NCBI GenBank assembly: GCA_030141585.1
Contig: JAQIFP010000022.1
Span: 39,829 to 77,534, forward strand
Origin: Ophryocystis elektroscirrha
Taxonomy: Eukaryota; Apicomplexa; Conoidasida; Neogregarinorida; Ophryocystidae
Reading direction: 5' to 3'
Length of the DNA stretch: 37,706 bases
This document shows, piece by piece, positions 2,646-36,684 of the stretch (position 1 is its first letter; the number at the start of each line of letters is the position of its first letter). The notes below the pieces were generated by a model that was given only the letters and a program-made list of their open reading frames with translations, ran no database searches and was not told the DNA's origin. A program made the translations under genes and the position numbers.

Positions 2646-3407
2646 ATGTCAAAATCATCGTTAAGTTTACTGAGCCCTGATCTTTTGGAAAACGTTATAA
2701 ATGCGGCAAAGGAGAACTTTTTTACTCCATCAAAACAAATAGATGTTTTTAGATTCAATCCAGTTGTTTCTGTAGAGACAAAAGCAGATGTTATCAGAAA
2801 ATTTGAGTCAGAATCAGCGAATGTATTATTAGAGGCAGCTGAAGATTCTTTAAGAGTAAAAAAAAAAAAAGAAAAAAAAAAAATAGATTAGCTGGTATTT
2901 TAAAGTTGATAACCATGAGAAGAGTGAAACCAAAAAAGTACTTGATTATATGTTTATAAAGTTAAATGACATGGAAACTGTTTCACATACAATTATTCGT
3001 AAAAGACCCGTTGAAGGATATCATATCACTTTCTTATTCATGGAGCATCATTTAAAAATGGCTACGGTTTCCCAGCTCATTTTGCAAATGACCCAGGTTT
3101 GTTTTTTTTTTTTTTTTCTAGTTAGATTAAATTTAGTATATATATACAAATATGATTGATATGTATTTATTTTTTACCGTACAAAATTCCTTTAGTGTTT
3201 AAGTACAAAACTATTTAGTCAATCTTATTACTATTACAATTTTTATATTGATTTTAGACTTTACGTTTACTGGAAAGACACGTGAGTGGAGTTTTGCAAA
3301 AATTAAAGATTCACGAAGATTACGTTGCTGATTGCTTACTTGCAGGGTTTTTGGAAGTCCATATGAGACCCATAGCTGCATCAAAAAAAGATAATGAAAA
3401 TCATTAA
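2646..3407 (+). CDS. ARPC4: Arp2/3 complex subunit 4 (ARPC4, p20)
   Basis: Exons 2646-2855, 2887-3096 and 3258-3407, all phase 0, give 189 aa against about 168 in animals. ARPC4 is a core scaffold subunit of the seven-subunit Arp2/3 complex, which nucleates branched actin at the cell cortex and on endocytic sites. The best evidence is RKRPVEGYHITFLF, matching the conserved RRKPVEGYDISFLI of ARPC4, together with NVLLEAAEDSLR before it and ERHVSGVLQKL near the C terminus at the expected spacing. The first intron, 2856-2886, is 31 nt and almost pure A; removing it joins two open frames exactly across a conserved part of the family. The second intron is 161 nt. The N-terminal ~35 residues are divergent, so the start is only probable. 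Confidence 0.85.
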
Positions 3408-3776
3408 TTTAAAAATAAATTTTTTTTTTTTTTCTAAAGAATTATTGAACTTTATTCACTTAGTATTTTTTTTAGTGCATACTATGGTACGATCAATAGT
3501 GCATTTGTTATTTACCCACAATTTGATAATATATAATTACATAATGAGAATTGAACTGTTAAATATTTTATTTGAACAGATGTTTTTTTTTTTTTAAAAA
3601 ATTATTTCGTAGCAAAAAAAAAAAGGAAGTGGTTCTTTTTTTTATTATCTTTATACTATACTGCAATAAGAATAAGTTATTTAGAAACATCAATTTACAT
3701 GCAAAATGATTTTATAGCAAAGAAGTCTTTTCGCATGCAATAAATTGAATACACTTGAAATAATCTTTTGGCAAAA
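3408..3776. other. Intergenic, poly(T)-rich
   Basis: Spacer between the ARPC4 stop and the GH18 start with several T10-T13 runs. No exon was recognised. Confidence 0.6.
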
Positions 3777-5494
3777 ATGAAAATTTTGAAGTCTGTGCCA
3801 AGATTTATTATTTTCTATTCAAACTTATTATATTTTATTAGTTTCTTCAAATTAATTGAATCGTCAGACTATGGTAAATTATTGAAATAGCGTTATATTC
3901 ATTCAAAAACGTTTTTTTTTTATATATTTATTTTTTTGTGTTTTTTAGAATGCGACTCAGGCGATTCTTCATGCGATTTTAACACGGTTGAACAGCAAAA
4001 TGACTATTTACTTCAAAGAAGTGCAGACCCTACGTTACCCCCCAATAGAGATATCAAGTTTGGAGTTTATTTGCCTTCGGTATAACTGATTAAATACAGT
4101 AAACTATCATTAATTAATATATAAATTGAATATATTTTAATTTAAATAAACTGCATAAGCAAAATTATATAACCCTTTATAATATTTAAATATACATATT
4201 ATATTTTATATATTATAAATGATATATTATATATTATCTAGTATATATTAAATATTATTAATTATGTATATTATATATATAATATATATATTATATTCAA
4301 ATTATCGGATAAATTTATTCATATATACTTATATAAATTGATATATATTTATATATAGTTATATATATTTATTAATATTTATACATATTCATATAGTATA
4401 TACATTATATATTATAAGTAATATATTATAATATATATTATATATAGTATATATTAAATATAAGTTATTAAATATATATACTTAGTATTTATTAATGGGA
4501 TTTTGCTGTATATAATCCGTTATTTATGATATGATAAATGTTAATAGTTTTTTTTTTTTCTTAGTGGAACGTTTACAGCAAGATGTTTATGGGTTTAAGT
4601 AAGCTAAATTTGAACGGCGTGTCATCTGCTCCGAGCGTGCCAGAATGGAAATATAGTTTTTGGGCTCGCGACATGCGTGCGTTAGCAAATAAAATGCATT
4701 ATTTAAATTATGCTTTCTGGAATGTAAATTCTGACTGTATAGTTCAGGATTCAGATACAGATGCATCTTGGTATGGAGCGGTATCCGAACCAACGTGGAT
4801 AAATATACAACGAAATAACCAAAGCGTATGTAAAGGTATGATGAATGATATGATGTCACTCAAAAACGATTTTCCTCATTTAAAACTTCTGGTCACTTTG
4901 GGAGGATTAGAGAATGCAAAAAATCTTTCAAAATGCTCATCTACACAAGAAAATCGAGAAAAGATAGCAAAATCTTTAAATTTTTTACTGAAGCAAATGG
5001 ACTCTAACTGGGGTATGGCAGACAACATGTGGGCTGGTGTTGATATTATCAAAGAATATTCTGATAGTGTTGAAGACAGTGAATGGGAAAACTACGTTTC
5101 ATTAATAAAAACTATTCGACAAATAGCTCACAATGAAAATCGCCATGAAGCCATTATTTCCAGTGCTTTTGGGGTAGGCGCTCCTTTTGATAAACTTATC
5201 TCAACGCCACATATTGTCAAAGATCTTTGTGAAAGTGTGGATTTTGTTAATTTAAAGGCATACAACTTCCATGGACAGTGGGATAAAATTACAGGGCATG
5301 CTGCTCCTTTTTGTGAGGATAAGAGAACTCAAAACCCTACTAGAAATTCTGTTGTAAGCATAGTTGATAAGCTGACTGCAGCTGGATGTCCAGCTATTAA
5401 AGTAAGTTAGATTTCTGTTATAATTAAATAAATAATAAATTATTATTATTTTTATTGAATAAAAATAATAATAATTAATGAAGTTCATTTTACA

Positions 5495-5530
<36 letters not shown>

Positions 5531-6569: not shown

Positions 6570-6810
6570 ATAATTACTTTTTTGTAATATATAATTTTTA
6601 AAAATTAAATTAGATTTCTTTTTATAATTTTATTACTCATAATTTTAAACAAGTGTAATAAAGACATTGTAAACGAATAGTATTATTTTTGTATTATTTA
6701 CATTTTATTTTGTGCCTTTTGGATAAAGAACCTTGAATAAATGATGATTTCATCAAATTAATTATTAGATTATTATTTGAGTTAGTGGGATTAAATGTAA
6801 ATAAAGAAAA

Positions 6811-9684
6811 ATGGAGGAGTTCACAAATTATAGTGAGTGGAACAAAATACAGGATATGTGGTATCGTAAAGAGCCTATACTTACGATGAATTGGTATAAA
6901 GACAATTTAAACAAATACTTTATGCGCTTTAGTCCATTTGGAGGACCTATAAGTATTTTGCTAGGCGTTAACGTTAATTTGAAGCCCATGGAAGATGTTT
7001 CACTCCCAACTTTACAAATATGTACTGCAGCAGGGGTATTATTAAGCCAAATCCCGTGGACATTTGGATTAGAAATAGCCTTAATGAAATGGGATATAGA
7101 AGAAAATTTAATTTGTATTTTTGATACAGGCACTGTGCGTGTTTTCTCCGCCATGGCTGAATTACTGTATACGTACACTTTGCATGAAGAAATTAAATTA
7201 GACCACGGTATATATTTGGGAGACATTTCGACTGATAAAATAGTTTGCGTAACTCGAGCTTTGAATATTTATGTTAATTATGGTTTATATAAATCGAATT
7301 GTGTTAAGTTGACTCATGCCAAAATTAATAATATTCCCATAGATTTATTTGTAATATCTTTTGATTTAAATAATCTTCATGATGACTATAATGACACTCC
7401 TTTATTTGAAAAGAAGTTGCCTCTCAAAAATAATTCGAATTATGAGTTGGATGCCTCGGAAGACAAAGACTACGACAGTAATTTGGATTCAAAACATGAA
7501 GTCAAAAGATTTTCTAAGCCATTCTCTGAAATTGATGAAGATAAAGAATTGAATCAATTTTTTGACGTAGATGGAACAAATACTTTAAGTAATTGGCGTG
7601 ATAGTGTGTCTTTGGATAATGAAAAAATAATAAATAAAAAAAGTACGTCGAATCAGCGTTGTTCAGAACAGTCTCCAGTTTTGTTGTCATGTTCGTCGAA
7701 TGTTCCTTCTACTTTTTCGAGTTCAAATGATTTTTCCGATGAATCTTCCACGAAAAAACTCATCAATGTATTAAACAATTATCACTTTAGTGATAACCAA
7801 GCGGATAAGCGTAGTTCAAGCAATTTAAACGATAATTTTGCTAGTTGGATTGATCAAAAAGCCGCACCGTCGTCCTCCGCTGTAAATGAAGCGGAAAAGA
7901 CGTATAAGCAAATTATTGAAACCGCTAGATCTGATTACAGTAAAACTTCCGATAGTGTCGCTTCAGAATATAAATTATTCAATAATCGTGGATCTTACCA
8001 ACATGCAGCAACGTCTTACAATAATAGACCTTCTTCGACTGTGTATTCCATTGATCACAAACAAGCAACAACCGTTTTTGACAGAAATAACTCATTTATT
8101 AAAAAATCCTTTGACAAAAGGGAACCCATTGTGAAAGATAACCAAACCATTTCTTCAAATAATTTTAATGTATATATAATAACGAAATCCGGTACATTGT
8201 ATTTGATAAATTTGGTCCTATGTAAGCAAATAAGCCCATCAATATATTTTACAAACTTTATAAGAAATTTAGATAAGAGGCATATATCGGCAAAGTCTTT
8301 GGATAATATAGTTTATGTGTATTCATTACATAAAGTCTTGGAAATGGATACTGCTGACAACAATAGTCCACAGATAATAAATACTGTGCCACTACCCATA
8401 GCAAGAGATAAAAACACAAAAACTATTTGTGGCTGGATAGGCCGCAATTGCCTTGTAGTATACCACACTTGTGATCCCTTTATAGTAAGCATAGGAGGTC
8501 CTTACAAACAGTGGATTCCTTTTGTTTTTCATGACGAAATTATAACACTATTGACAGAACTGGACTGTGTCAGAGTTATATGTAAAAAAATGACATATTG
8601 GATTCGTTGTGTCAATAGCAGCTCTTTGAATATATTTAAAAGTAAAACACATAGCGCATTTTATTTATATAACGCGTACAAATCTATTAATGAAGACAAC
8701 AATATACAGGTTCACACATTTTTGGAAAAAGCTCAAAAAAATCTCGTGTCAGCTATAATCAACTGCTGTGACGCCGCAATCAGAGAAAGAGATACAGATT
8801 TGTGTTATCAATTACTTGGTGCCGCTAGTTTAGGAAGAACATTGCTATTAAAAGGATATTCTAGCAGAATACAAAAATTTTTAATGAGATTATTTTTGTC
8901 TGTATGTCGTGATTTGCGGACACATTTAATATTAGCAAAACATAATATTGAAAAAGCAATTTCAATAAATCAATACATTTATTTAACTCCTTATAGAGTT
9001 TTAAGGATTCTAGCAAAAAGGCACCAACATTGTTTAGCTTTAAGACTTGCAGATTTACTTGGTTTTCAAATAGACAACTCAATACAAAAATTTCTTTATT
9101 TATCTTACATTCCAGAAAATAATAATAATGGAAATTATGACGAAAATTTCCCAGCTTATAAATTACAAGAACTAAAGCAATGGAGTTTCTATACTTCAGA
9201 AGAAAGATATGGTATTTTACCTGTTACCAAAAATCTCAGTACGGGAATAACCATACCAGTGCATCATTTTTCATATATTAATGCATTTTCTCACATTATA
9301 GATCAAACGAATAATATAATTAAAGTTTCTCCAGAAACTTCGATCTTTACTGATCTATTGGAACATTGGATAGCCATTCAAATTATTAATAAAAACGATA
9401 TATCTGAAGAACTTCTTCTAAAAATTATATCCTCATGTCTGGCTTCTTTTCCTAAAGTATTTTGCTCTTATTACGACGTAAGCTACAATATAAAGCAGTT
9501 TTTGTTAAATTACTGATATATATTATAATTGATAAATGTCTATATATACAAGAAATATATATATTAAAAAATAATACAAAAAATACAAATCTTATAAAAT
9601 AATATAATATATATATATATGTATAACTATAAAAATGTATAATATTATTATATATTTTACCAAATATACTATTATATATATTAT

Positions 9685-9727
<43 letters not shown>

Positions 9728-10973
9728 TGGTTTGATTGATTTAATTGGTTAAATTGTATATTATAAAATTCATTATATATAATGCATGCATATATAGACT
9801 AACTTATGTTCATGAGTTTATATATATGTATAGATATAATTTTATTTTTTATCAATAATTAATATTAATTAATATAAAAAATGATTATATTTGATTTCAG
9901 TTGGCGATGATAGCAGACTATTTTAATTCTCCTAAAATTGCGAACACTTTGATTCGGTATGAGTTACGATACAAATATCGTGTCTTTGGACTGTTAAGAA
10001 TGAAAGATTTAAAAGGGGCTTTAGACGTGGCAATTATTTCGGAAAACCCTGAGTTAATTTATATATGCATTAAAGCACTTGAAAAAATAGATCCTTATGT
10101 GGGACTTATCAAATGTTTCCAAAAAAACAAGATTTTATGGAGAATTTATCAGTCAATTTGCATAAACTCGAAGAAATATGTTACTATCAGAAGATTATAT
10201 GAGTCTGAAAACCACTTAAATTTGGCTGCTTATATGTCTTTCGCAAACAATATAGAAACTTCAGATATTTCAAGCTTTGCACACACTGCCGCTCTTTTTA
10301 GCTCAGCTGCAAGAACTTCAAAAAGTCCCATACTACCAAAAATAACATTAGAACATTTAGAATTACTAAATATTCAAAAAACTCTGGAAGCCAAATATGG
10401 GAAAATCATTTGGTCTGATAAAGATATCCATGCAGAATGTCGTTCTTTAGCACAAACTATCAAATTTCTTTATAAAAAGTAAGATTTTTGTTATATTTTT
10501 TAAAACCCGTTATTAGAAATGATGTGAAAGAAGCAGAAAGACTTCAAGCATTATTTTCAATATCCCCTAAACTAGCTGTGAAACTTCGATTACAAGTTTT
10601 AGCGGAATCGTAAGGTTAATTTACTCCATTTAGCGTTTATTTAGCGATCGCATTGAAGAGTTCTTAGACTTACGTAAAACCAATGCAAAATTTAATATTT
10701 CTAACACTTATTTGGTTACTTTACTACGCAAGTCATCCAAGAAAAAACTTACAGGTAATATTTGATTTTCTCCTTAACAAAACCAAAGAGGCTGCAATTG
10801 AACAATTATCCACGGAAAACGCATCACAGTCTCTCAAAAATGTCTTTAGTCGTCCAGGCTGGGATTTCCTTAAAATATTTAATACGCAAAATTTGAATAA
10901 ATCCGATATTAACGAAGATGAAACATCAAATGGGTTTTTATCCAGATACTTTAAACCACTCAAAAAAAATTAA
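6811..10973 (+). CDS. VPS16: VPS16, HOPS/CORVET core subunit
   Basis: Exons 6811-9477, 9901-10478, 10517-10609, 10645-10754 and 10789-10973 give 1210 aa; human VPS16 is 839 aa. VPS16 is a core subunit of the HOPS and CORVET tethering complexes that drive endosome-vacuole fusion. The N terminus fits Vps16_N: FSPFGGPISILLG matches the family's APYGGPIALL, followed by LQICTAAGVLLSQIPW and the DTGTVRVF blade. The C-terminal exons fit Vps16_C: MIADYFNSPKIANTLIRYE, then NDVKEAERLQALF and KLAVKLRLQVLAES. The extra length is mainly an Asn/Ser/Asp-rich insertion at about residues 187-450 inside the propeller, after which NVYIITKSGTLYLINL resumes it. Introns are 423, 38, 35 and 34 nt. The ATG follows an in-frame stop-rich spacer and precedes the first conserved block. 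Confidence 0.92.
9478..9900 (+). other. Intron 1 of VPS16 with TA microsatellite
   Basis: A 423-nt phase-0 intron (GTAAGC...TTTCAG) with a (TA)n run at about 9690-9724. No other feature. Confidence 0.85.
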
Positions 10974-11165
10974 TCAATAAACAAAATGATATCGCTTCGT
11001 AAGTATTCTTAAGTAATGCATAAAATCTTAAGCAATGCGTAAAATACTTATTTAAGCAAGTTATATCAAAAAACTGGAAAAAAAAAAAAATAAAAACAAA
11101 ATGCACGCAGATATTTAAATTATTTCTGAAGATTTCTTAATTTTTTTATTAGATAAACGACTAAT

Positions 11166-12446
11166 ATGTCAGCAGTACACGTGAGTGGTACAGAAAATGA
11201 TAAGATTAATAATAACACCAGTACAGCAGGATTGGTGAAAGCGAAATCTGTGCAGCTACATGAAATAGATGAAAAAGCTCGTATAGAACAAGCACCGAAA
11301 CAGCCTGGATTATGTGTTGATGAAATTTGTAACTGTAATTTACATTATTGCTACCCATCCACAATCCCTACTCCTTTTGATGGAACAACTACTTATAAAG
11401 TTGACTATGGCAACAAATTTATAGGCGAAGTATTTCCGCCTGTTCAATACACACTGGACAATCCACCTGAAGGGGTAGATCTGAATGAATGGAAAAAATA
11501 CATCGCTAAACATGGCTTACCCAAGCCGTAAGCTAAAACTATATATAAAATTTCACTATAATTCTGTAACAAATCTAGTTTAATTTAGACTTCATTTATC
11601 TCTCATAATTATATATTTAAATAATCTAAAATAATATTTATTTACTTTCAAATTATTTATAAAATTGTGGGGTTGCATTAACGTAGTTATATAAATTAAT
11701 TATATATATGTTTTTGTATATAGTAATATATTTAAAACATATATTATTATTATAACTATTTTAATCATAATAATAATAATAACAAAATATATATTTATAC
11801 TTATATATATTGCAATAATAAATAACATAAATTTATAATTTTGGGTTGCTATATATATATATAAAATTTGATATATTAATTAAATAATTATTTAAAAATT
11901 AATCTACAATATCCAGAAGTTACTAGTTATCCTCATTTTATATATATATATATATTTTTTTTCAAATAATAATTATATTTTTTAGAGGACAAATTCCCTC
12001 TTTATTTTTTTATCAAAAGACACCGGAAACTAGGGATTTTGCTACGGAAAGCCGATTAAATTATGACAATAAATTTCTTGGAAACCAAAACTTGTCAGCA
12101 TTCCATATAGATAAAGATACTCCTCCTCCAGGAGTAGATATAGATGTATGGAGAGAATATGTAGCCAAACATGGAGTACCTCCAATGTAAAAATCATAAA
12201 TTGTTAATTTTTATTGTTAGTGATAAAATACCTCAACAGTTACACTATAAAAAGACTCCTGATCTCAGGGACTTTGCGTAATAATTCATAAATAAATAAT
12301 TTTTTATTTATAGGACACAATACAGAAGTACATATATTCCTCATTCTGTGGATGTATGCCCAATCAACGTTTTACCTCCATACCCAAAAGCTGAATGGCC
12401 AAGACAACATAAATTTTGGGATCCTATTGCAAAATGCTGGTATTAA
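11166..12446 (+). CDS. SAXO-like axonemal microtubule protein (predicted)
   Basis: Exons 11166-11527, 11986-12186, 12221-12277 and 12314-12446 give 250 aa. Residues about 50-62 read CVDEICNCNLHYC, resembling the N-terminal CxCELCxCGRHxC signature of SAXO/FAM154 stabilisers of axonemal microtubules. Short repeated motifs follow, TTYKVDYGNKF, ESRLNYDNKFLG and TQYRSTYIP, like the TxYxxDY motifs of flagellar microtubule-binding proteins. A longer repeat is also visible: PPEGVDLNEWKKYIAKHG and PPPGVDIDVWREYVAKHG, each followed after about 10 residues by KTPxxRDFAT. Introns are 458, 34 and 36 nt; the 57-nt third exon is supported because it restores the KTPDLRDFA repeat. If right, the organism makes a flagellum. 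The gene model is strong; the family is a motif-level call. Confidence 0.72.
11528..11985 (+). other. Intron 1 of the SAXO-like gene
   Basis: A 458-nt A+T-rich intron with short TA runs and a T8 tract near the acceptor. No other feature. Confidence 0.8.
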
Positions 12447-12593: not shown

Positions 12594-15022
12594 TTAAGTT
12601 GCCCGTCTTTTTTTGGTTTTACTGGAAGTGCTACGAGAACGTTTAGAAGATTTTTCTTCATAATCAAACTGGGAATCCATAAATAACGAATTAATTGAAT
12701 CATAGCAACTAAGTAAAGGGGACGATGTAGCTGAATAAAAATCATAAAAAAAAAAAAACTTACATAATTTGGAAGGTGTTGGTGTATGAAAGCTAGGATT
12801 ATCAAATGTACATTTATCGTTGTCGTTAGTACTATTCAAAGAACTTGTAGTTGATAATTCTAATGATTGAGCTGAGGAGTATATATCTTCTTTATTATTT
12901 TCATTATTTATGGTTCCTAAAAGATATGACGATTTATAGTCGGAATTGTATGTAGATGGACTCGAACCCAGTACGTATAGCATAGTATCATCGTATATAG
13001 ATTGGTTGTTTTGTTGAGATGTATTCTTAGGTGTATAAATATTGGAATCAATTACAAGCGAAGAAGAAGACGAAGAACATGAAGAAGAACAGCCTGTTTC
13101 AGTACTGTAAGTGGTTTTATTGTTATTAGTATTTTTAGTATCATACATATAATATAAAGAAGACGGGTTCTGTTGAATCGACGAAGAAGAAGACGATGGA
13201 GAAGAAGAGGATGAAGACGAAGATGAATATGATGGATGTTTTGATACATCACTCGACTTTATATTTTGAGAACTCATAATATTATAATACTGTAAATTTA
13301 CAGGTTTTACATCAACGGGAGTTAATAATAATTTTTTATTCATGTTATCATTATCTTGATTAGCCAATAAAGCTAAATTAACATCATGTATACCATCCGC
13401 AACTATTCTACATTATTTTTTATTAATTTAGTTAGCTTACTTGGTTACAACTTTTTTTACAGTATCTGGAATCCTTTTTTGAGGAGAAGGAGGATGGTCT
13501 AGACCATACGCTAATCTTGATAAAAATTTCCTAATTAATTCATGGTATAAAACAACTTTATTATTTGTAGAAGAAACGATCGATGGATCTCTACAAGTAG
13601 ACATTATAAGTAAATAGTAACCACACTAAAGCACCACTTATATAAACATGCATATACATAATTTTTTTTTTTTTTTTTTTTAACTCTATCTTATGAATTA
13701 ATAATTAATTTAGTACCTTCTTAGGTTATTTTGTAAAGGACATAAATTTGGTGTGCATTTTAAGAATGCATGATCAAGTCTAAATATAGGTTCTATATAT
13801 TTGTATTTAAATTTTCTAGAGAATTCAGTTGAATCTACTTCAATTCGAGCCAGAACTCGAGACATCACATTAACCAACAATTGTTCAGAATCAATGGAAT
13901 CAGTTAAAAAAGTTTTTTTGCCATTTAAAAAAGCGTCCTGTTTATTACAAGTAAAGGACGAGCAGCATTTGAATGCTTCTACGCATTTAGCATTATAAGT
14001 TGATTTTTGTACATTATCAGGTTTTTTTGGATGCACGTTCCAAGGGAGATCTTGCGATTGAGGGAACTGCAGCAATCAAAAATCAACTTTTTTTCTTATT
14101 TTGTTACACATTTGGCGGTATTTCACATATTTACGTGCAATTCAATATATATAAACACCTACTTTATTCAAATATTATTACATACATACATATATATAAC
14201 TTTTATCAAATAATCTATTAATTAATTTGATTAATTATTATTATTATTTATTAAATAGCAATAGCTAATTATAATTTGTACAAGGCAATATGTGCATATA
14301 CTGCAAACAATTTTTCCATATAATTGTACATATATTTTCCTAAAATATAAGTAAACGATTTTTTCTGTATATACCTTCAATATTCTATATATAGCAATAT
14401 ATGTAAATACTGTGTATATATGTAATATAATTATATTAATATATATATAACAATATATATAGTTACATATATAGTGATATATATAATAATATATGTAATA
14501 ATATATATATAATAACATATATAATAATATNNNNNNNNNNNNNNNNNNNNNNNNNNNNNNNNNNNNNNNNNNNNNNNNNNNNNNNNNNNNNNNNNNNNNN
14601 NNNNNNNNNNNNNNNNNNNNNNNNNNNNNNTAAATACTGTGTATATATGTAATATAATTATATTAATATATATATAACAATATATATAGTTACATATATA
14701 GTGATATATATAATAATATATGTAATAATATATATATAATAACATATATAATAATATATATAATAACATATATAATAATATGTATATATATATATAACTA
14801 TGTATAATAATAATGTATTACAACAAATGTAATTATCAAGTATATATGTAATATACCTTAAATTAATTACCTCTTACACCAATGTGTCCATGGTTATGAG
14901 ATATATATATAAAAATATATATATTGATATATATATAACAATATATATAAAAATATATATAATGATATATATAATAATAATATATATTAGAATATATTTG
15001 ATAATATATATAATATTGAATG

Positions 15023-15063
<41 letters not shown>

Positions 15064-16369
15064 ATAAATATAGTATTTATATAATAATACATTTTTTATA
15101 TATACTAATATATATAATAACATAAATAATAATATGTATATATATATAACTATGTATAATAATAATTTATTAGAACAAATGTAAATATCAAGTATATATG
15201 TAATATACCTTAAAATATATAGTTTTTACACCAGTGTGTATATGGTTATGTAATATATATAACTATATAATAATATCATTATGTATATATATATATATAC
15301 AATTTTAAAATGATACATATATTATTATGCTAGGTGTATTTATTATTAATTAAACAATTATGTAGTGTATATAGAACTTTATGTAATACAATTAATGTTT
15401 ATAGAATTTTTCTCAATTTTAATACTTAAAAGACAGGTATTATTTAATTGTATGGACCAGCTTTACATGTCTATGCAATTTGGAGCTTAAATAGTAGATA
15501 AATTGGCCATTTTAATTTACACGTGTATATGTGGATATTCACAGTAACATGTACAAATAATAACATACCTTTTTTTTAAACACAGCAACAATTTTAGCCT
15601 GCGAATTTGCAAATATAATGTAATCTTCTAAAGACCATATTCGAGGATCTTTAACGTCATCATTACATAAGGTTTTTTTAACTGAGTCGAACCATTCAAT
15701 CTCATGATCCGTATATTTTTGTTGAGGACAAAATGTTGCATATACATAACAATCAGGAGTCAAAAAATTTGATAAACATTCAAGAAATAATTTTGGTATG
15801 CTGACAGACAGAGTGACTGTGTCAAATTGATATACTTTTATACGTCCTTTCACTTTTCCTGTCGTTCTTGATGATTTAATGCAGTGACGTGCTGGGCATA
15901 ACACCCATGGGCGACTAGCACGGTAATCATTGAAAAATATCAATAATTTTTTTTTTTCAGAAGGTGTTATTATGTTTGTGTTGCTCGAAGAAGTTTCAAA
16001 AATTTTACTATTTTTAAATTTATGGTTTGGAGCTTTATATGAAGGATTGCTCGTTTTAATGACTTTTTGGTCAGACATAAGGTTTTTGTTTAAATTAAGT
16101 CTAGTTGTACCTTCTCTAAAGCCGTCTAATAAACATTTGATTTCCTCTGGATTTTGCACACCACATCGACGCATAACAAGCATTCCTAACTCGTAGTGAT
16201 GGGATATAAACTGCCTTTCAAAATCAGACGGTACTTTTTTTATTAGCTGTACCACTTCCGGCAAAGCACGAGGAACCCATGAAACCACATAATAACTACG
16301 TGGAGGTGGTAAAATACTGGCCATTGATGGGAACGGTATCATCCATGATGAAAAATCGTGTGTAACCAT
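12594..16369 (-). CDS. Unidentified 693-aa protein with Cys-rich middle and Ser-rich tail
   Basis: Read on the minus strand as exons 16369-15569, 14066-13717, 13590-13441, 13407-12764 and 12730-12594; every join keeps frame. I do not recognise the family. The first exon (267 codons) contains SYYVVSWVPRALPEVV, HHYELGMLVMRRCG and RPWVLCPARHC. The second carries paired cysteines (FKCCSSFTC and CTPNLC). The third has LYHELIRKFLSRL. The fourth is low-complexity Ser/Asn/Thr with S10 runs, and the end is a basic KRSRSTSSKTKKRR, likely a nuclear signal. A nuclear regulatory protein is possible but is inference. The last three exons could instead be a separate gene: an ATG at 13604 reads MSTCRDPS straight into the same frame, giving 314 aa from 13604 to 12594. 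The last two introns are 33 nt each. Confidence 0.6.
14404..14530. repeat. 127-bp direct repeat, copy left of the gap
   Basis: The sequence from TAAATACTGTGTATATATG to ATAATAATAT ends exactly at the N run and is identical to 14631-14757 immediately after it. Confidence 0.95.
14531..14630. other. Assembly gap (100 N)
   Basis: Exactly 100 undetermined bases, the conventional size for a scaffold gap of unknown length. Confidence 0.99.
14631..14757. repeat. 127-bp direct repeat, copy right of the gap
   Basis: Begins at the first base after the N run and is identical to 14404-14530. Confidence 0.95.
14785..14905. repeat. Diverged about 120-bp repeat, copy 1
   Basis: Contains AACTATGTATAATAATAA, then CAAGTATATATGTAATATAC and TTACACCAATGTGTCCATGG. 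It is paired with 15134-15260, which has the same blocks in the same order. Confidence 0.75.
15134..15260. repeat. Diverged about 120-bp repeat, copy 2
   Basis: Direct partner of 14785-14905 about 350 bp away, with scattered substitutions (for example TTACACCAGTGTGTATATGG). Confidence 0.75.
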
Positions 16370-16932: not shown

Positions 16933-19900
16933 ATGTCAGTTTCGGGAGGTAATATGCAGAAGAAAACTTCTATTGAAGAGAAGTTACAACTTGTTCGAGT
17001 TAGAAGACATTTAACTATAAATGGACCTCCAGAAGCAATTCGGAAAGTATGATGCATGTTTCTTTTTAGTTTTGTAGACGACAACTGAAAATTCGAATTT
17101 TCTCTTAAGAAAAATATTCAAAAAAATACAAGTATCTGATTCCCTTAGATCTGATCAAATTAATCTCGTAAAATAATATTCACTGTACAACAATAACAGC
17201 CTTCAAGTATTTTAAAATTTTGTATGATTCATGAAAAATATGCTTCAATGAGTTCTGGAGACCCTCTTACGTTCCATCTCCATTCGAGTGATACTGGGTC
17301 TCCTTGCTATGTAGTGGGAGCAGAATTTTCATTACAAGAAGTATATTTATTTAACTTAAATAACATCAGGAAATATTGGAAGTCTCCAAATATGTAGCGG
17401 AGGTACTGGAATTGGATGCCAAAAAACACCAGTCTGTTTATGTTACTTGGGTACTGTTGCCAAAAGGTATAATTTGTTACTAATAGTTAATTATTTCGAG
17501 CAATTAAATTTGCCGAATCATACATATGCAATAATATAAATACTTCTATAATATAAATATAAATATATATATTAATAATATTATACATAGAATCTTTGAT
17601 TATATTTTTTTTTTTTAAATATCAATATGTCCACATAGTATAATTGTTACACAGATTGTTATATACTGCTTATATGGTTTTAATAAGTACATGCGATCTT
17701 CGTATGTATAATGAATAATCATTTTAAGGTACATGTATTCTATATAATATATATAAGATATATTTATTTATGACACATAATAAATCAATTATTATTTATA
17801 TATGTGTATATATAATCGGTATCATAGAGTAAAAACAAACTAATAATCAATTTATTAATTATAAAGATAAAAAACTTGTAAACGGCTCTAAATTAGTCCA
17901 TAAATTCACTATTTTACAAACAATAATATTTTAATATTAATAAAATACGTAAAAAATAATTTCATTATTAAAATAATTAATTGAAGAAATTAGTTTGTAT
18001 AGAAATAATTTAATATATTTTGTATGTTTTTTTTCTTCTTATATTTAAAAGACAACATATATAGTTATGTTTTTGTATTATAAGTTTATCTAAATAAATT
18101 TAGAAGTAAAAAGTGTAGTTATGTAAGGACATATAACATATTTGGTTTATTTTAGTGTGCGTATTTGTGGCTTTTTATTTTTTTCACATGTTACAAGTGT
18201 ATATACAATGACATGTACTACCTTATAAGAACAATACAAACATCAATAAAAACTATAAAAAAAAATTACTATTTGTTTATTTGAAATTCTTGTATGCACT
18301 GTTTATTTATTATCTATAGGGGAATACGTTTTTCTTGAAGTTGATGGATCTACTTTGAATAATGTTCTCAATCTAGACGTAAAAAAAAAAAAAAAAAAAA
18401 GTATTAGAGATATATCGAAGAAACACTGTCAAGTTATAGTATTTTATTTAAAAACCAAAAAATCGAATTAAGTATTCCTGGAGACACCACGCGTGTACAT
18501 GTTCGCTGCAAAGATCTATTTCCTTCATGTGATGCCGTATCTATCAAGGACTGTGACGTCAGTCAATATTAATTATATATCTTTGAATCAGCTTAAAGTA
18601 GATATTGACATAATAAATAAAGTGCAAGACGAATCTGAGTTTCCAATTATTGCTATGGGCTCTGAGTATAAGGGAGTTGTAAGTTATTATGTCATGCAAT
18701 TTTTGTGATCTTCAATATATGTTGATTATATTAATCAAATATATCTATATTAATAATAAATTATTGACTATTAAGTGTCTTTATAATTACCAAATAATTT
18801 TATACCTATATACGTATATACGTATACTAAAATATACGTATATACAGTATAATATAATATAAATCCATAAGAAATGCAATAAGAAGTGCAGATAATGTTA
18901 AATATCTATATATAGCCTATAGCCAAATAATACATATATTTCATTGCATTCAAATAGGAAAATTTGCATACATTATACATTGTTTGATATAATCGACTAT
19001 AAGCATTATTTGCATGCAAGTTTGTGCAGAAAATATATATATACATATATATACATATACATAAATATATACATGTATATATACATATATATACATATAC
19101 ATAAATATATACATGTATATATACATATATATACATAAACATAAATATATACATGTATATATACATATATATATACATATATATACATATATATATATAC
19201 ATATGTATATATATATATATGTATATGTATATGTATTTATATATATATAAAATAATAATAATAAAAATATATATATATATATATATTTATCTATGTTATT
19301 ATTTATATAAAACATATTACTTCGTATAAATCTTTCAAGTTTTTTGCATAAAGGTATTTTTTATAGATTAAAGGCAATAAAGAAGTACTAAAAGTGAAAT
19401 TGTTTGAAAAAAGTAAATGGCCTCCTAAAATGCTGATAAATATTGTTGTTAATTCTTCTGGTAAAATTCTTTTTTTTTTTTTTTAATTTTTATCAGAAAT
19501 ATTGAGTATCTTTTTAAGTTTTCCACCATTGAAGGAAGCTTCAAAAAATCGACATCATTTTAGGAATAAAACAAATAATTCTTTAACTGTTTCTTATTCT
19601 GATTATCGAGAACACGTTCTTAGAAAATCACTTGGAACTGACTATCCTCAATATATGTTAATAGGGGTTGATTCAGATACTCCAAATGCATCTTTTACTT
19701 TAAGATGTCATTTTATTTTGTCAAAAAAAACCGACTCAGAATTCTCGTAAGATAAATAAAAAATAATTTTTTTTTTTTTTTTAGTATGAATTGTGCCTCA
19801 AGTAACCAATTGGTGCGGCAATGTATATTTTGCGGTTTATTTATTCATCAAGATTCCATTCAGCTTGAAGAGTTAAAAAAAAATGATATTGATTTAGAGT

Positions 19901-20870
19901 TGAATTTATGCGAGCATGAAATATATTGCGGATCAAAAACAGAGAATTGTGATGTTTGTTCCGTTCTTCTTCCTAGAAAGTTTATGCAATTTCATATTCA
20001 GTATGCCCACTGCTTTGATCCTTCACAGGTATTAGACTTTTTTTTTTTTTTTTTTTTTTCTTTTAGACTTGTTGCAATATCTGTCAATTAGACTACAATT
20101 GGAAGAGTTCCGATGAAGCCTGGAGTCATATTTTGAATGTCCATTCTAAACTATCAAATATATGTGTTAATGAGAAGTGTAATCGTCATTTTGTTTCGAA
20201 AAATGAAGTTCAAAAGTTATGCGATAGATGCCAGTCTCTTGTAACAAAAGACTTTAATAAAGCCGATCTTGAAGCATTGTCTTCAATTTATCTAAGTCAG
20301 CTTTCAGATAATTGCGTGAATCCAAAAGGACAGTGCAAATCCAATAAAGAATACTGTTCACATTCGTTTCAACATCAAAGTGAACTAGCATCAGTCAGTA
20401 CGTAAGTAAAGTGTAATTTTTTTTTGTATTGCCATTATATATATAGTATTTTTATTTTATAGTATCGGTTTTTTAAAAAGAAAAAAAAGATTTAAAAACC
20501 ATTTCTTTGTACTAACTATTAAATGAATAATAAAATATTTATTATCAGTATATAATAAGTAGCATATATAACCTGTATATAGCTTATATTTATAATACAT
20601 TTTCATACAAAGTTATGGTAGGTTTTTCTTTTTTTTTAGAATATTTTTTATCAATTTATAATAGAATGTATTACTATACAATACTATATACTAATGTACT
20701 AGCTAGTAGCAAAGTTCATTTTTATACACATTATTTTTAGGGAAATAAAAGATTTAGCGCTATATTGTGAAAATTTGGCGAAGCAATACAAAAGCAAATG
20801 TTTCATATGTATACCCGGAAATGTAGTAGAAAAAAAAAAGTCAATTAAGGGTAATCTTATAGCTTTTTAA
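16933..20870 (+). CDS. UFD1-domain protein with TRAF/XAF1-type zinc fingers
   Basis: Eleven exons: 16933-17046, 17200-17340, 17370-17466, 18320-18378, 18408-18557, 18592-18678, 19367-19460, 19497-19746, 19785-20028, 20067-20401, 20741-20870. They join without frame breaks to 566 aa. Residues about 39-210 follow the UFD1 N-terminal fold: [45 protein letters not shown] and [15 protein letters not shown], matching the family's LPKGTFVKLQP and DAVSIIDTD regions. The C-terminal half has repeated CxxC...H...C zinc knuckles: [47 protein letters not shown]1 with such fingers is known in plants, fungi and protists; canonical UFD1 works with Npl4 and Cdc48/p97 on ubiquitinated substrates. Eight introns are short (29-38 nt for seven, 153 nt for one) and three are long. 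Fine function is unknown. Confidence 0.85.
17467..18319 (+). other. Intron 3 of the UFD1-like gene
   Basis: An 853-nt intron between LPK-G and G-EYVF of the UFD1 domain. It is A+T-rich with poly(T) and TATA runs and holds no recognisable exon. Confidence 0.75.
18679..19366 (+). repeat. Intron 6 of the UFD1-like gene with 40-bp tandem repeat
   Basis: A 688-nt phase-0 intron. Positions about 19042-19170 hold just over three copies of a 40-bp unit made of ACATATATATACATATACAT followed by AAATATATACATGTATATAT, flanked by TA/CATA microsatellite to about 19290. Open frames made of Tyr/Ile/Met in this stretch are repeat translations. Confidence 0.85.
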
Positions 20871-20912: not shown

Positions 20913-22150
20913 TTATTTGGTTTTTTGAGCAGTGATCAATCTACGCGCTGACCTTGTTTCGGCTGTATATATTATTATTAATTTTAGATTAACTTACGTT
21001 TTTTCTGAGATAGCTCATCACTTTTTTTTCTTCTTCTCTTTGGAGGCTCTAACAGGTTTTTTACTATTTTTTTTGAGTCTACGGATTTGGGTTCTGTATT
21101 ATCATTTATTTTCTAAAATATTTTTATTTTTTATTTTTTACTTTTAATTTCTCAACTTGTTGCTTCAATACGTCTTGTACGGACTTTGCTTCTTCTAGCT
21201 GTTTCTGAAAAAAAAATAAAAAAAAAAAAAAAAATACTTTCAGGTTGTTAATAGTAGTTAAATATTTGGATGTATCTGGACATTCAGAACGTAATTCAAT
21301 AGCTACAGCTCGATTCAAATCGTATTCTCTGTCGCCCAAATGGTGACTTTCAATGAGCTCTTTCTGTTCATCTAAGGCTTGAGAAGAGGCTAATAATTCT
21401 TTTTGTAAAATATCCAGATTTTCTGTTTTTTTCTGTATATTTTCTTTGATTAATAAAAGCTCTTCTTTTTTATTTCTTATTTGTTCTTCCTGATTTGTTA
21501 ATTCGACAAGACGCATTTCTAAGTCTCTTGATTTCAATAAATATTGCTCTTCTTTTGCTAAAAGATAATTTTCATGTTCTTTTTTTTCATTTTCAAATTG
21601 TAAATACTCAAGCTCTAACTTTTTTTTTTTTTCAATTAACTCATCATTGTTCGTATGGATTATTGCTGTTATTTTTTCTGCTTTTAATTGTTCTATTTGT
21701 ACAGATAAAAACTTGATTTCTTCTTCTTTTTTCTTTATTTTAGAGATATGCTTGTTTATTTGTTCACACGTTCGGGTTTTAGTTGAAAGTAAAGATGCGG
21801 CTAATACTTCATTTTTTTTTTCAAGAAATACTATTTTTTCTTTTGAAGAGACTAATGAATTCTATTTCAAATGTTGGGATTTTATTTAGATACCTGGATT
21901 TGTTGTATTTGAGAAAGAAGGGAAGATACATCTACTGAAGATTTAGATGTCTAAAAATATTTAAATTAAAGCAAATTTACATTATTGAAAGACGGGTTAC
22001 AGAGAGAATATGGTTTTGGTACCTATATTGACATTTTACTTATTATTTAATACATACTTCTTCTATATTCAAATTAAATATATTTTGAAACTGCTTTTGG
22101 GTTACTGGTTGTGAATAATTGTCTGATTGTGATAAAAATCTTGACTCCAT
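20913..22150 (-). CDS. Coiled-coil protein with basic C terminus
   Basis: Exons 22150-22058, 21950-21894, 21861-21238, 21204-21142, 21112-20998 and 20962-20913 give 333 aa. After a short polar N terminus (MESRFLSQSDNYSQP), residues about 50-275 are continuous heptad-like, Glu/Lys/Leu/Gln-rich coiled coil. The C terminus is basic, with PPKRRRKKSD and RSARRL, a likely bipartite nuclear signal or nucleic-acid/tubulin contact. No globular domain was recognised and no family is assigned; a kinetochore, spindle-pole or chromatin scaffold would fit but is only a guess. Four of its five introns are 29-35 nt. The stop lies 42 nt from the stop of the convergent UFD1-like gene, and the start is 61 nt from the stop of the next minus-strand gene. 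Confidence 0.8.
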
Positions 22151-28508: not shown

Positions 28509-28567
<59 letters not shown>

Positions 28568-30478: not shown

Positions 30479-30515
<37 letters not shown>

Positions 30516-30563: not shown

Positions 30564-30641
30564 TTAGTGTAATTTACTGATACTATATATACAACTAAAT
30601 TTATGTATAAACACGACAATGACCTATAAATATAAAAGAAA

Positions 30642-31321: not shown

Positions 31322-31355
<34 letters not shown>

Positions 31356-32212
31356 TGATGAAATTATAGCTGACCTATTGCTTTTATGCAAGCAATATGA
31401 GCTTGCACGAAATCCTTTAAGCATAGAGATATGTAGATACATTTTTCTAGAGATGACACATAATTGTATCCGCTTTGAGCACACCAAGAAAAACAATGTC
31501 TAGAAAGAAGCAAAAAAGAAGGGTTTTTGGACGATAGCGCATTAATTCCATTTTTATACAATATACACGATTGCAATTCGTCATCCTTGTTTAAATATAG
31601 CAGGGCCTGTAAAACGTATGATTACATAAATTTGATTATTGCTGTATACTGTTTATTTAATCCTATCATTTTTACAATAAATTTATAAAATTAAGTATAT
31701 ACATATACATATATATACATAAATATATACATATTATACATATAGATATATAGATATATATGTATTTTTATTTATATATATGTATAATTTCAACAATATA
31801 TTAATTAAAGTAGATTCTTTTTAGTAGCTTAACTATAATATATTCAAATTTACTTGTACATGATAATAATGAAATTGTTAATGAATAATATAATTAAATG
31901 AATCTAATCAAATTACTTGAGTGTAATTGATTACAGCCTGTGTATATTGATGGCAAGCCCTGAAATATAGGAAAAAAGCAAAGGACATACGAATAGCAGT
32001 CGGCGAGCAAATATATCAAAGTAAAAGTCATTTTTTTGGACTTATTTGGAAACTCTGAGTAAATCTGCCAAGCTTTCTTAGCAACTTCAAGTGCCTCATC
32101 CGATCTGTGCATAGATTTATAAATTAAAAAATTCTTACTTTTTCTTCATTAATAATTCCTGAGAATCATTGATTATATTATTCAAATGAATTTCATTGGT
32201 ATTTGTATCCAT
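30642..32212 (-). CDS. TPR-like protein, 343 aa
   Basis: Exons 32212-32139, 32104-31991, 31959-31917, 31606-31375, 31241-30936 and 30904-30642 give 343 aa. The N-terminal half has helix-pair periodicity typical of tetratricopeptide repeats: SDEALEVAKKAWQIY, LADCYSACHQYTQAVINYTQ, then CIYISLCLKDFVQAHIACIKA. The C-terminal third is Lys/Tyr-rich and ends in a basic KRTRSKILK. No orthologue is recognised. Introns are 34, 31, 310, 133 and 31 nt. The last one could be 31 nt (acceptor TTTAG) or 22 nt (acceptor ATTACAG); both keep frame and differ by three codons. I prefer 31 nt because it fits the length class of this window. Confidence 0.75.
31607..31916 (-). other. Intron 3 of the TPR-like gene
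   Basis: A 310-nt intron with CATA/TA low-complexity sequence (31697-31785). Nothing else was seen. Confidence 0.8.
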
Positions 32213-32372
32213 ATACTCTTGAATGTATTCTAAATCTTAGAATATGTATAAATGAAAATGAGAGAAGGTACTGCTATTTTATATAAAAAAAAAAAAAAAA
32301 ATCCTTTTTTTTTCTTTAGTAAGTAAATAACATTTGATTTAGAACAAAAAAAATATACAAAAAAATAGATTT

Positions 32373-34198
32373 CTAGTTTGACGAGGGATGGAGTTTGTTA
32401 AACATAGGAAAAAAAGCCCAGCGGCGGATAGGATTGTTTGAGCAATAATTGTGTGTAGGGGATATATGTGTATAATAACTAGAGTCTATAATAGCATTAA
32501 TATCAATATTTCGTTTTGATGATTGATTTTCTTTGTCGTGAAGCTTTGATTTGGTTGTTGATGCGACAGGTATATACATCGTAGTCATCGATTGAAGAAA
32601 CCATGGATGGTTTAGTGCTTCTTTTGCTGTTTTGATGCGAAACTTAGCATCGTACATCAATAACCTTTTTGCAAGATCAACAGCTAAAGGATATTTTGCC
32701 TTCACTTGTTGCCTAAAACGTATTCCTTTGCGCAAAGTTTCCTTTATCATTTGGCTTCCACCTTTTATATTAGAAAGATCATAAGGGAAATGGCCGTCCA
32801 AAAAAATGTACAGAATTACACCGACGCTCCATAAATCAGATGCTTCCGTGTATAAGCCATTGTATCCTTCTGGTGCCTGCAAGACATAACATGAAACTTC
32901 CATTAAAGTATGCGAATTTTTAAGCATAATAAATGCAAATATAAGCGGAGTAAATAGAAAATATTATCAGAATATTTGAACATATTAATCAGCAATATAT
33001 TAATTGTTGATTAACTTGTATTAACTTATACTATTTAAATCAATCATATAAGTAATGCAAACTTTGACATGTTCTAATTAATATCAACATCTATACTCAT
33101 CATCCATATATCTATACTTGGCTGTTATATATATATACATATATATATGTATATTAGTGTTTCTACCATATAATCTCTAGTTCCAACGATAGAAATTTCA
33201 TTAGGTACTTTAGGAGGTCTCGGTAGTTCAGGCCAATCCACCATTAAGCTCATGTCGTAGTCAACGATTGATAATTCGGTCAACGACAAATCTTTAAATA
33301 AAATATTGTCCAATTTTATGTCACGGTGTAGGAATTTATGTTGGTGTAAGTGGTCAACTCCTTGAAGAATTTGATATAGAACCATTTGTATGAGGTGGTT
33401 TGGAATCGAACGAGGAGAGAATTTGAGTACATAGTCTACCAAATCTGACCCTTCATATAAGTCAGATATTATATAAAAGTTTTGACTGTCTTCTATGAAA
33501 TCTCTCATTTTTAAAATATTTGGATGAGGAAACTTTGGCAGTCGTCGATACAATGCTCTGTAATAATTGTCGCTAGCTAAAAGTTTCTGTTTCTGCTTTG
33601 GAACAATTTTCACAGCAACCGCATCTTCTTTTTGTAAATCAAGCCCTTTATATATAGTCGACGTACTAAAAACATTATGATTAGCATTTTCTAATTTTTT
33701 TGTTAATTAATTGTGTATTTTTATTCTTGCAGAAAACATTATATGATAAGTGTATCTTTGTATAATGTACATATCAATGGATATATCAAATACATAGATT
33801 ACAGAAAACCAGTACAATATTATAAGTAAAGATTACTTTATGCATGTCGTATACGTATAAATAAAAAGATAAGTTCAGACACTAGAGTGCAGCATTTTAC
33901 TGTTTCTCATATATTCAATAAACCAAAGTAAAACATCATTTTTATGAGAATATAATTTACTTATTATACATATGCTATGGTATTTATTTAGTTCGCAATA
34001 AAGACATCTTATAGATTATATACATATTCTTTCTTACAATCCTTTCCCTATAGGTTTTTCCTGAGGATCATTTTTTTTCCAAACAAACCGTTTGGAACTA
34101 CCAACATAAGAGTGACATACATTTTCGTTGACATTTTGATGAAAATACTGATCCTTATTTAAAGAAGATATTGATATTAAAGAATTTTGAGTCAACAT
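32373..34198 (-). CDS. CAMK-group-like Ser/Thr kinase, atypical
   Basis: Exons 34198-34038, 33665-33167 and 32876-32373 give 387 aa, with introns of 372 and 290 nt. Visible kinase elements in order: glycine loop PIGKGFTSTIYKG (from about 49), VAVK with Lys73, HPNIL, hinge region IISDLYEGSDLVDYV, catalytic loop HRDIKLDN (Asp169, Lys171, Asn174), VDYDMS at 188-193 in place of DFG, GTRDYMAPE (215-223), DLWSVGVILYIFLDGHFPY and RIKTAKEALNHPWF. The last resembles the C-lobe end of CAMK/CDPK kinases. There is no Glu anywhere between Lys73 and HPNI, so the usual alpha-C salt bridge is absent. No EF-hands or calmodulin-binding segment were seen in the about 75-residue tail. Catalytic Asp and metal-binding Asp are present, so activity is possible. 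Confidence 0.88.
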
Positions 34199-34961
34199 AA
34201 TTTACGATTACGTATATACTATCAAAGCGGATAAAGAAACTCTGATCAAGGGAAATAATATATAAAACCAATTATTTATTTAAACTAATAAATAGACATT
34301 TAAATTCTCACTTAATTATATATAAAATTAAATTTACATATAAATAGATCAAATTTAAACTTTTCCCTGAAATCTGTTAGAACGCGGGTTCAACATCCTT
34401 ACATTTTAACATACAAATCAGACTTAGACATTATTCATAGCTCATAAATGATCTCAATTTAATTCAGTTTGGTTTAAAAATAACATTTTGCTACGATTGA
34501 TAACACCCAGCCGCAGATAACTTTCATTATGACTCTTAAATAATGTATATGTTTTTATTTAATTCAAATGATAGTATAAAAAAAAACTCACGTAACAATA
34601 AAATTGATACGTTTCATAATGAAAGAAATTTATTTAATGTAAACTAATTTTTTTGAATAATTTTTCACAAACGTTTTTTCATATGTTGGATTTTTGTTTG
34701 CTAGTTAAATTAAAATTTTGTGAAATCTTGAAATGACGAAAATATATTATTTTTCTATCGTATACATAGTTTACTATGTGAAGCATGATTATTGTTGAAA
34801 AAAATTCTATGTTAAATTAATTTGAATGATTTGTTGTTTTACATGATCAAATGAAGCTTTAAATATCTTAAGAATGATTTTTTTTTAACAATATTCGAAT
34901 TAAAGAAATTATGCAAACTTCAAATATATATTAAAATATGTCTTTATATATGAAAAAATGA
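34199..34961. other. Intergenic, no gene seen
   Basis: About 760 nt upstream of the kinase and downstream of the 67-aa gene. It is A+T-rich but not a simple repeat. No exon with protein-like composition was recognised on either strand; it should include the kinase promoter. Confidence 0.55.
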
Positions 34962-35165
34962 CTAAGATAAATTTTCTTGTTCGTCAGAATCCAAAGTATC
35001 TTCTAAATTATTTTCTTTCATTTGTTGAGTAAAATATTGATTACAATTTATGTGCAATTCTTTTAAAGCTTGACTAATTAATTGATTATTAGATTGTTCA
35101 GCAGTATGTACGATAATATTAGAGTTGTATGTGATACCCTTCGTAAGCTGAAATTCTTGTTCCAT
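34962..35165 (-). CDS. Small acidic 67-aa protein, possibly Gon7-like
   Basis: A single-exon frame from ATG at 35165 to TAG. The composition is protein-like rather than repeat-like, with a predicted helix around ISQALKELHINCNQYFTQQM and an acidic end DTLDSDEQENLS. The pattern of a short helix with an N-x-FLT-like stretch followed by an acidic tail recalls Gon7 of the EKC/KEOPS tRNA-t6A complex, but similarity at this length is weak and the name is withheld. Its start lies only 35 nt from the DOP1 start on the other strand. Confidence 0.5.
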   Translation of the reverse strand: MEQEFQLTKGITYNSNIIVHTAEQSNNQLISQALKELHINCNQYFTQQMKENNLEDTLDSDEQENLS

Positions 35166-35200
35166 GTTCTCCAGACAGAATACCTGTTTAATTTAAATGA
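35166..35200. promoter_or_regulatory. Very short divergent intergenic region
   Basis: Only 35 nt separate the ATG of the minus-strand 67-aa frame and the ATG of DOP1. Both genes must share promoter elements or start transcription inside each other. No specific motif is identified. Confidence 0.4.
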
Positions 35201-36652
35201 ATGCTCAATCTTTCAATAAACACCGAGTCTTTTGAATATGAAATCCAATCTGTTTTGCATCTTTTTGATAAAGCTCAAGAGTGGGCTGATTTAAGCAATT
35301 GTTTGAGTCGTTTACACAAGGTTAGACGATTTATTTCTTTATAGTACTCTTTCTCTTTCAGGTACTACAAAAGTACAACCTTTCTATAGCTGTATTATCC
35401 AATTGCGAGGCTATAGCCAGTAAATTGACTGAATGCTTGAATCCTTCTTTACCCGGTAATTTAAATGAATTTTCATTAGTATTAATTTAATTAATACGAA
35501 TTTTTTCTTTAAATTTTAAAATAGTACAAATGTACATTTATTTTATTATTTATGTAATCACTGAGTTAAAGTATTCTTATTTATAAATAATTTCAAATAA
35601 AATAAATATAAAAAATTTTAATGATTTACAGCATAAAATAAATGCTTACATATTTTGGATTTTTTTTATTTCATAATATGAACACTTATAATTCAAACAT
35701 CTGTGTGTATATTTATGAATACGCATAACTTAAATATTTTTTTCAATAATTAAAGAAAATTTGTGCAAATCATTAAAATGCAATAATTAAACATGTCTAA
35801 TTTTTGACAATAAATAGATATACTATACAATATATATTTTATTATAAAACTGTTAAATTTCTAAAATATTATTATCAACAATAATCTAAAGATTTCTGTG
35901 TAACTATGTACAAATTTTAGCATAAGGGGTGCTTTAAAAATAAATAAGGGTGCTATGATACATATATGTCTACATGTTGTAATAATTACAACGATATTAG
36001 AAAACAGAATTAATAAATAACGTTATTTATTGAAATAAAAGTGTTTATAATAATTTTATATTTATAAATAAATTATTTAAAACTCAAGCTTGAAGCATAA
36101 ATTTTTTATGTATTTGTTGCTTTAGCGGGAGTACACCTTAAATGTTTGGATGTTTATAAAGAAATTTTTAGTAAATTTGATGTAAATTATCATTTTTTTA
36201 TAAAATGTTTTGAATAGGAAGAATATTTTTGTAATAATTTGGGTTTTTGGAGCTGCGGATTATTTCCCGTATTCGCAGATTCTTCATTTCAAGTTAAACC
36301 AGTATTTATTGAAATTATCAAAACATTTTATATCCCTATCAATAAAAAGTTGTTACCATGTTTAAGTGGTAGGATTCTTCATATATTCGGGAATTTCGAC
36401 GAATATGATTGTCAGGCTTATTAGTTGCTCTGTTACCTGGGTTAGAAACCATAGCTGATGGCAGCCAAACCGAGCTTAAGTATATATTGAAATGTATTGA
36501 AGAATGCGTTGGAACAAAACAATTTTGTTGCACTCTATGGATTGTTGCTCTTAGGTAATTTTTAATTAATTATATTATACACTTTTTATTTATAAAACAC
36601 TCTATTTTTTTCTCTAAATATTAGAAAGGTGCATTATACAGTTTTATATTAT

Positions 36653-36684
<32 letters not shown>

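Follow-up and report, generated by a model that had tools for sequence, protein, structure and literature searches.

A few other unicellular organisms have previously been shown to carry very short introns. The nearest described system is that of the gregarines Porospora cf. gigantea A and B, in which, according to the main text of PMC9250747, introns of 25-30 base pairs (bp), with a mode of 28, account for 71-72% of all introns and show strong conservation of an A located 6 bp from the acceptor, within genomes of about 9 Mb and a guanine-plus-cytosine (GC) content of 54%. The same text mentions 20-bp introns with a putative branch A near the 3' end in Babesia microti. For Blastocystis, the main text of PMC5608401 gives more than half of the introns of subtype ST1 as 30 bp long and more of those of ST7 at 31-38 bp; introns of about 25 bp are described for Paramecium and Nyctotherus (main text of PMC5014332), and of 16-17 nucleotides (nt) for mikrocytids (main text of PMC10245619). 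Here we report that the neogregarine Ophryocystis elektroscirrha adds to this kind. The analysis started from a window of 37,706 nt (GCA_030141585.1, contig JAQIFP010000022.1, positions 39,829 to 77,534), an AT-rich eukaryotic scaffold with 26.3% GC from a small, AT-rich genome of 8,008,172 bases in 118 contigs. An earlier note on this window had proposed a tight class of GT...AG introns of 29-41 nt, and we conclude that these segments are very probably U2-type spliceosomal introns, close to the smallest size that this spliceosome can process and standing beside longer ones.

The predicted class resembles that of Porospora in belonging to a gregarine apicomplexan with a compact genome and in forming a tight, very short group beside other introns. 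It differs in length, since the introns here span 29-41 nt and lie mostly at 31-34 nt (95 of 225 predicted introns) instead of at 25-30 nt around a mode of 28; in the branch region, where A reaches 29-42% at positions 5-9 from the end of 97 short introns and no A is fixed as it is in Porospora; and in GC content (28% against 54%). Babesia microti is likewise an apicomplexan with very short introns, but they are shorter still and the species belongs to a different apicomplexan branch. Blastocystis, a stramenopile, has similar lengths in an unrelated lineage, and Paramecium, Nyctotherus and Stentor share near-minimal spliceosomal introns with the present genome. The table published for Stentor in the main text of PMC9505925 lists Slu7 and Prp18 as not available, whereas homologues of both were found here. 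Mikrocytids are parasites with a narrow intron size range, as here, but according to the text cited above their introns are much narrower and conserved in sequence and their spliceosome is reduced. The precedents named in the earlier note, Blastocystis and ciliates, do have introns near 30 nt or shorter, but the list missed the nearest one, Porospora. In the open-licence literature (main texts, supplements aside), no description of a short-intron class in O. elektroscirrha was found; in the main text of its genome paper (PMC10210345) the string 'intron' occurs once, as an aligner setting, and 'splic' never.

At the coordinates given, all nine segments quoted in the earlier note begin with GT and end with AG, with lengths of 29, 29, 31, 31, 32, 34, 34, 35, and 36 nt. 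Genes were predicted with a Viterbi gene finder that used a codon-usage score, required GT and AG at intron ends without any further splice-site model, and had a flat length prior (equal cost for all introns of 15-1200 nt). The region-limited run covered seven hand-chosen regions within the window. The joint two-strand run covered 164,008 bases with a GC content of 27.7%, namely the window and 126 kilobases (kb) from elsewhere in the genome (ten pieces from 13 stretches), of which L015 (Prp8) and L016 (Slu7) were chosen for their splicing genes and the remainder by position alone. The site-model run added a GTAA/YAG site model to the joint run and retained the flat length prior. The totals of 217 and 225 introns given below exclude loci L009-L014, L020, and L021. 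A run on each strand alone was dropped, as it yielded long antisense gene chains.

With only GT and AG imposed, 19 of the 47 introns predicted in the window by the region-limited run measured 29-41 nt. The joint flat-prior run placed 68 of 217 introns in this range, with 9 shorter and 8 of 42-60 nt, and the peak was also present beyond the window (58 of 174). Adding the site model raised the class to 95 of 225, most of them 31-34 nt long, with 1 shorter (22 nt), none of 23-28 nt, 7 of 42-60 nt, and 19 of 61-120 nt; the lone 22-nt intron, on contig C1, had been 33 nt long in the joint flat-prior run. Density was uneven, with 30 short introns among 60 in 30 kb of contig C1 compared to 1 of 12 in L003. 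The joint runs merged genes and thereby lost introns of the window, so that window counts depended on the run (10 of 43 in the joint flat-prior, 15 of 44 in the site-model, and 19 of 47 in the region-limited run); where runs disagreed, homology decided if any existed. The earlier note had also set the long introns apart as a separate class. This agrees with the sharp lower edge of the distribution, but it is blurred by a thin upper tail of 47, 69, 75, and 100 nt, of which the 47-nt intron of DOP1 and the 69- and 100-nt introns of Prp8 lie in homology-supported stretches and the 75-nt intron of a chitinase-like (GH18) gene rests on the reading frame.

Such a peak might arise from artefacts, that is, homopolymer indels or wrong frames patched by chance GT..AG pairs. 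Several of the segments, 2856-2886 and 20029-20066 among them, are rich in homopolymers, the gene finder errs in places, as in Prp8, where it called a 22-nt intron although one of 34 nt yields a better protein, and when GT..AG was swapped for other dinucleotide pairs its raw score in the window ranked just 27th of 256. The raw rank is low because AT-rich pairs offer many more sites; after regression on site counts, GT..AG ranked first of the 256 pairs (4.26 standard deviations) and first of the 64 pairs of similar abundance. In the 164 kb, the 63 control pairs of similar abundance gave a mean of 9.3 and a maximum of 18 introns at 29-41 nt, and none of them produced a length peak. The controls also bear on excision at the DNA level, in which the segments would be removed from the genome rather than from RNA, like the internal eliminated sequences of ciliates. 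In Paramecium, eliminated sequences likewise peak at a short length, near 27 bp. However, ciliate eliminated sequences have TA ends, whereas the ends here are GT..AG with donor and acceptor consensus on the sense strand; the TA..TA pair, with 4747 TA sites available in the window, produced 9 segments of 29-41 nt there, and the 63 controls, all at or below 18, included the reversed-strand pair CT..AC. We therefore regard DNA excision as scarcely conceivable.

A splice-site consensus of GTAA donors and YAG acceptors emerged without having been put in. Among the 68 short introns of the joint flat-prior run, 53 had A at +3, 49 had A at +4, and 61 had a pyrimidine at -3, compared to 24%, 29%, and 43% in 2627 length-matched exonic GT..AG decoys; the decoys have a higher GC content, which makes this contrast larger than it would be against intergenic sequence. 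Interior GC was 16% in the short introns and 34% in the decoys, and the pyrimidine tract was slight (56% versus 48%). Long introns had the same consensus in a weaker form, perhaps owing to false joins in that set, and the donors and acceptors of short and long introns were broadly alike.

The joins themselves were examined in conserved proteins. The Prp8 piece encodes 782 residues across eight introns of 100, 34, 32, 32, 31, 69, 33, and 36 nt; when spliced it aligned with Prp8 chain 6zym_A at 1539.6 bits (1538.7 bits with human Prp8 3jcr_A, score only), and all eight joins, six of them of 31-36 nt, fell in ungapped stretches, the sole gap being one residue located seven residues upstream of the 36-nt join. 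Prp8 requires the removal of segments of 31-36 nt rather than one or two bases. The Prp18 domain matched across its entire length (181.5 bits) with joins of 30 and 182 nt inside it. A Rae1-like gene with short introns of 30, 35, 31, 38, and 31 nt matched PDB Rae1 at 1.8e-13, and two of its five short joins lay in ungapped stretches; a 19-nt call in this gene, read by eye, may be a 34-nt intron with a different donor.

Within the window, the earlier note had placed joins inside conserved blocks of ARPC4, UFD1, VPS16, and DOP1, and the PDB and family alignments bore this out. The ARPC4-like gene (2646..3407, plus strand) has predicted introns at 2856-2886 (31 nt, A-rich) and 3097-3257 (161 nt). 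Its spliced protein matched PF05856 at 4.6e-11 and PDB ARPC4 at 8e-7 with the 31-nt join ungapped (SLR|ISW versus SVRVS) and a 4-residue gap a few residues further on; with the 31-nt intron kept, the frame stops and the family match disappears. This plus-strand intron has the form GTA(A)n...TAG, without a pyrimidine tract. The Arp2/3 complex is said to be missing from most Apicomplexa. The VPS16-like gene (6811..10973, plus strand) contains introns at 9478-9900 (423 nt), 10479-10516 (38 nt), 10610-10644 (35 nt), and 10755-10788 (34 nt). It matched PDB 8dit at 7.9e-20, mainly through its first exon, with which a protein search returned no homologue. Its Vps16_C match rose from 42.6 bits for a single exon (profile positions 17-170) to 57.2 bits for the spliced protein (2-256). 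The latter match encloses the 38- and 35-nt joins and begins four residues away from the 423-nt join; it ends two residues from the 34-nt join, which therefore rests on the reading frame.

The plus-strand gene at 16933..20870, as modeled in the region-limited run, combines a UFD1 domain with a TRAFD1-type zinc finger. It has eight predicted short introns, at 17047-17077 (31 nt), 17168-17199 (32 nt), 17341-17369 (29 nt), 18379-18407 (29 nt), 18558-18591 (34 nt), 19461-19496 (36 nt), 19747-19784 (38 nt), and 20029-20066 (38 nt), together with long ones at 17467-18319 (853 nt), 18679-19366 (688 nt), and 20402-20740 (339 nt). The match to a PDB UFD1 chain was modest (6.8e-4), and the joins at 17341 (29 nt), 18379 (29 nt), and 18558 (34 nt) were ungapped in it; UFD1_N2 was found at 3.4e-6, under its gathering score, and the TRAFD1 zinc finger at 4.2e-7. 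The first two introns are less sure, because the site-model run, which ended this gene at 20405, had one 153-nt intron at 17047-17199 in their place. The model thus fuses a UFD1-type domain with a zinc finger of the TRAFD1/XAF1 type. In the 5' part of the DOP1 gene (35201..37706, plus strand), introns are predicted at 35321-35361 (41 nt), 35456-36125 (670 nt), 36182-36217 (36 nt), 36369-36415 (47 nt), 36555-36961 (407 nt), and 37197-37362 (166 nt). Dopey_N scored 251.7 bits with the joins of the earlier note, 241.7 bits with the 36-nt intron kept, and 199.7 bits with the finder's model, which skipped the preceding exon, indicating that the note was correct on this gene and the gene finder wrong. 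The 36-nt intron, if kept, introduces an in-frame stop, and the frame is lost when the 47- or 41-nt intron stays in.

Taken over these predicted genes, the artefact reading is already refuted for the homology-supported joins, where the pieces removed are 29-41 nt long and carry a splice consensus, unlike assembly indels of one or two bases; for the class as a whole we consider it highly improbable. The class near 30 nt was upheld by flat-prior gene finding, by the emergent consensus, and by the homology joins. It was overstated, however, that almost every gene of the window needs such introns: they are absent from the models of the chitinase, the protein kinase, and the opening part of the DUF3336 gene.

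One gene bears on the relation between the two length classes. The plus-strand gene at 11166..12446 encodes a protein of tandem repeats of about 67 residues and, in the region-limited run, has introns at 11528-11985 (458 nt), 12187-12220 (34 nt), and 12278-12313 (36 nt); the site-model run fused the two short ones into one of 127 nt. Neither a Pfam family nor a homologue in the protein search was found for it. The 458-nt intron splits residue 121 and the 34-nt intron residue 188, in equal phase and at an equal position of the repeat. Around both introns, four marker motifs are spaced 67 residues apart on both sides, and a fifth, farther one is spaced 66 apart. The 34-nt join is thus supported by repeat and frame rather than by a known family. 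The simplest reading would be that the intron was copied along with its repeat in a tandem duplication and that one of the two copies later changed in length, and this single case suggests that short and long introns may interconvert.

The same case has to be weighed against the idea of a separate short-intron pathway, in which length and AT-richness would be recognized through an early complex like SPF45/RBM17 instead of U2AF, along a route distinct from that of the long introns. Some human short introns need SPF45 and not U2AF, as stated in the abstract of PMC8363638. In the present data the length distribution breaks off sharply below 29 nt, the interior pyrimidine content is 25% or less in 3 of 68 short introns, interior GC is low, as given above, and a homologue of RED is present. 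However, short and long donors and acceptors are broadly similar, one site occurs in both lengths, decoys showed no spacing-specific depletion, and SF1 is present, so that we think a separate pathway unlikely. The earlier note had proposed a look at the U1, U2AF, and SF1 homologues. SF1 was found in the same genome, together with Prp8, Slu7, RED, and Prp18; but the model that detected a U1C-type zinc finger also responded in an Escherichia coli control, and the large U2AF subunit gave partial matches only, under the family cut-off, with the two best on different contigs. A genome search for U2 small nuclear RNA was silent, as it was in all controls, and is uninformative. The presence of Slu7 and Prp18 is in keeping with the long introns that this genome also contains.

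The U2-type reading is based on the position and length class of the segments, the GTAA donor and YAG acceptor, strand specificity, the joins in conserved proteins, and occurrence in the genome beyond the window. On this reading, introns would have contracted until most were 31-34 nt long, close to the shortest length, about 29 nt, that the spliceosome can still remove. The short introns would be removed from RNA by the same spliceosome as the long ones, with sites presumably paired across the intron (intron definition); their branch adenine may lie 12-13 nt before the 3' end. Short and long introns probably do not differ in kind but have been caught at different points of contraction or expansion, given the duplicated site with introns of 458 and 34 nt.

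Several observations weigh against this reading. Protein searches with the kinase (best match 56%) and the repeat protein (none) gave no near-identical protein of the species. Among 97 short introns there was no clearly enriched branch-point motif, and the excess of A at 12-13 nt from the intron end (52-54%) was weak. In the Rae1-like gene, three of the five short joins were at or beside alignment gaps. The gene finder merges genes, which inflates long introns and makes them unsure, and introns of 3n length without a stop escape the method. Within predicted exons lie 110 GTA[AT]..[CT]AG pairs at short-intron spacing, and sites plus spacing are thus insufficient to specify short introns. Exonic GTA..YAG pairs were depleted at every spacing of 15-120 nt and not at 29-41 nt in particular, and plain GT..AG pairs showed no depletion in exons. 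This last test gives no support to, and weakens, a further idea, which we hold only tentatively and consider doubtful, that intron length itself is the recognition signal: a 29-nt floor and a window of about 12 nt, combined with weak GTAA/YAG sites, low GC, and no pyrimidine tract or branch motif, would allow splicing of near-pure poly-A introns, with introns of many hundred nt processed by that same spliceosome and individual introns switching between the two states.

If these U2-type introns are as predicted, this is a gregarine genome whose near-minimal introns differ from those of Porospora in length and branch features and which retains long introns, Slu7, and Prp18, so that the trait can be compared inside one group. 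Aligners and gene finders with a larger minimum intron length would overlook these introns and produce broken gene models. By default, TopHat passes over introns below about 70 nt. The published O. elektroscirrha gene set, for which the main text of PMC10210345 names TopHat and BRAKER, deserves re-mapping.

Other short introns of the window were called in genes of less certain identity. On the minus strand, a 33-nt intron at 13408..13440 in a gene without known family (16369..12594) is suggested by the reading frame, and a coiled-coil gene has introns of 29 nt (21113..21141) and 32 nt (21862..21893) suggested by reading frame and site consensus, the latter absent from the joint flat-prior run. 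A 31-nt intron at 31960..31990 in a TPR-like minus-strand gene was not picked by the gene finder; with it and the neighbouring 310-nt intron (31607-31916) removed, TPR_12 matched at 5.3e-4, under its gathering score, whereas the finder's model, which omitted the exon between them, gave no TPR match.

Long introns had been said to carry the microsatellites. Many do, with tandem arrays at 4178-4480, 5498-5528, 9602-9724, 18801-18861, 19033-19309, 31696-31786, and 36645-36685, but other arrays lie elsewhere, such as that at 1996-2495, upstream of the ARPC4-like gene, where a 23-nt unit is present in about 22 head-to-tail copies. Arrays called at 2858-2887 correspond to the poly-A of the short intron.

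Scans of the window with Rfam at gathering scores and with ARAGORN gave no match. The GH18 chitinase-like gene (3777-6569) is interrupted by introns of 75, 485, and 208 nt, and its product is cysteine-rich in the C-terminal part. The protein kinase gene (32373-34198, minus strand) showed no EF-hand among the families found for its model, and its best relative among the matches listed was a protein from a 2.4-kb contig (P0001) with 56% identity. At 14531-14630, a stretch of 100 N is flanked on either side by an identical AT-rich sequence, so that this gap probably marks a place where the assembly was joined across a repeat.

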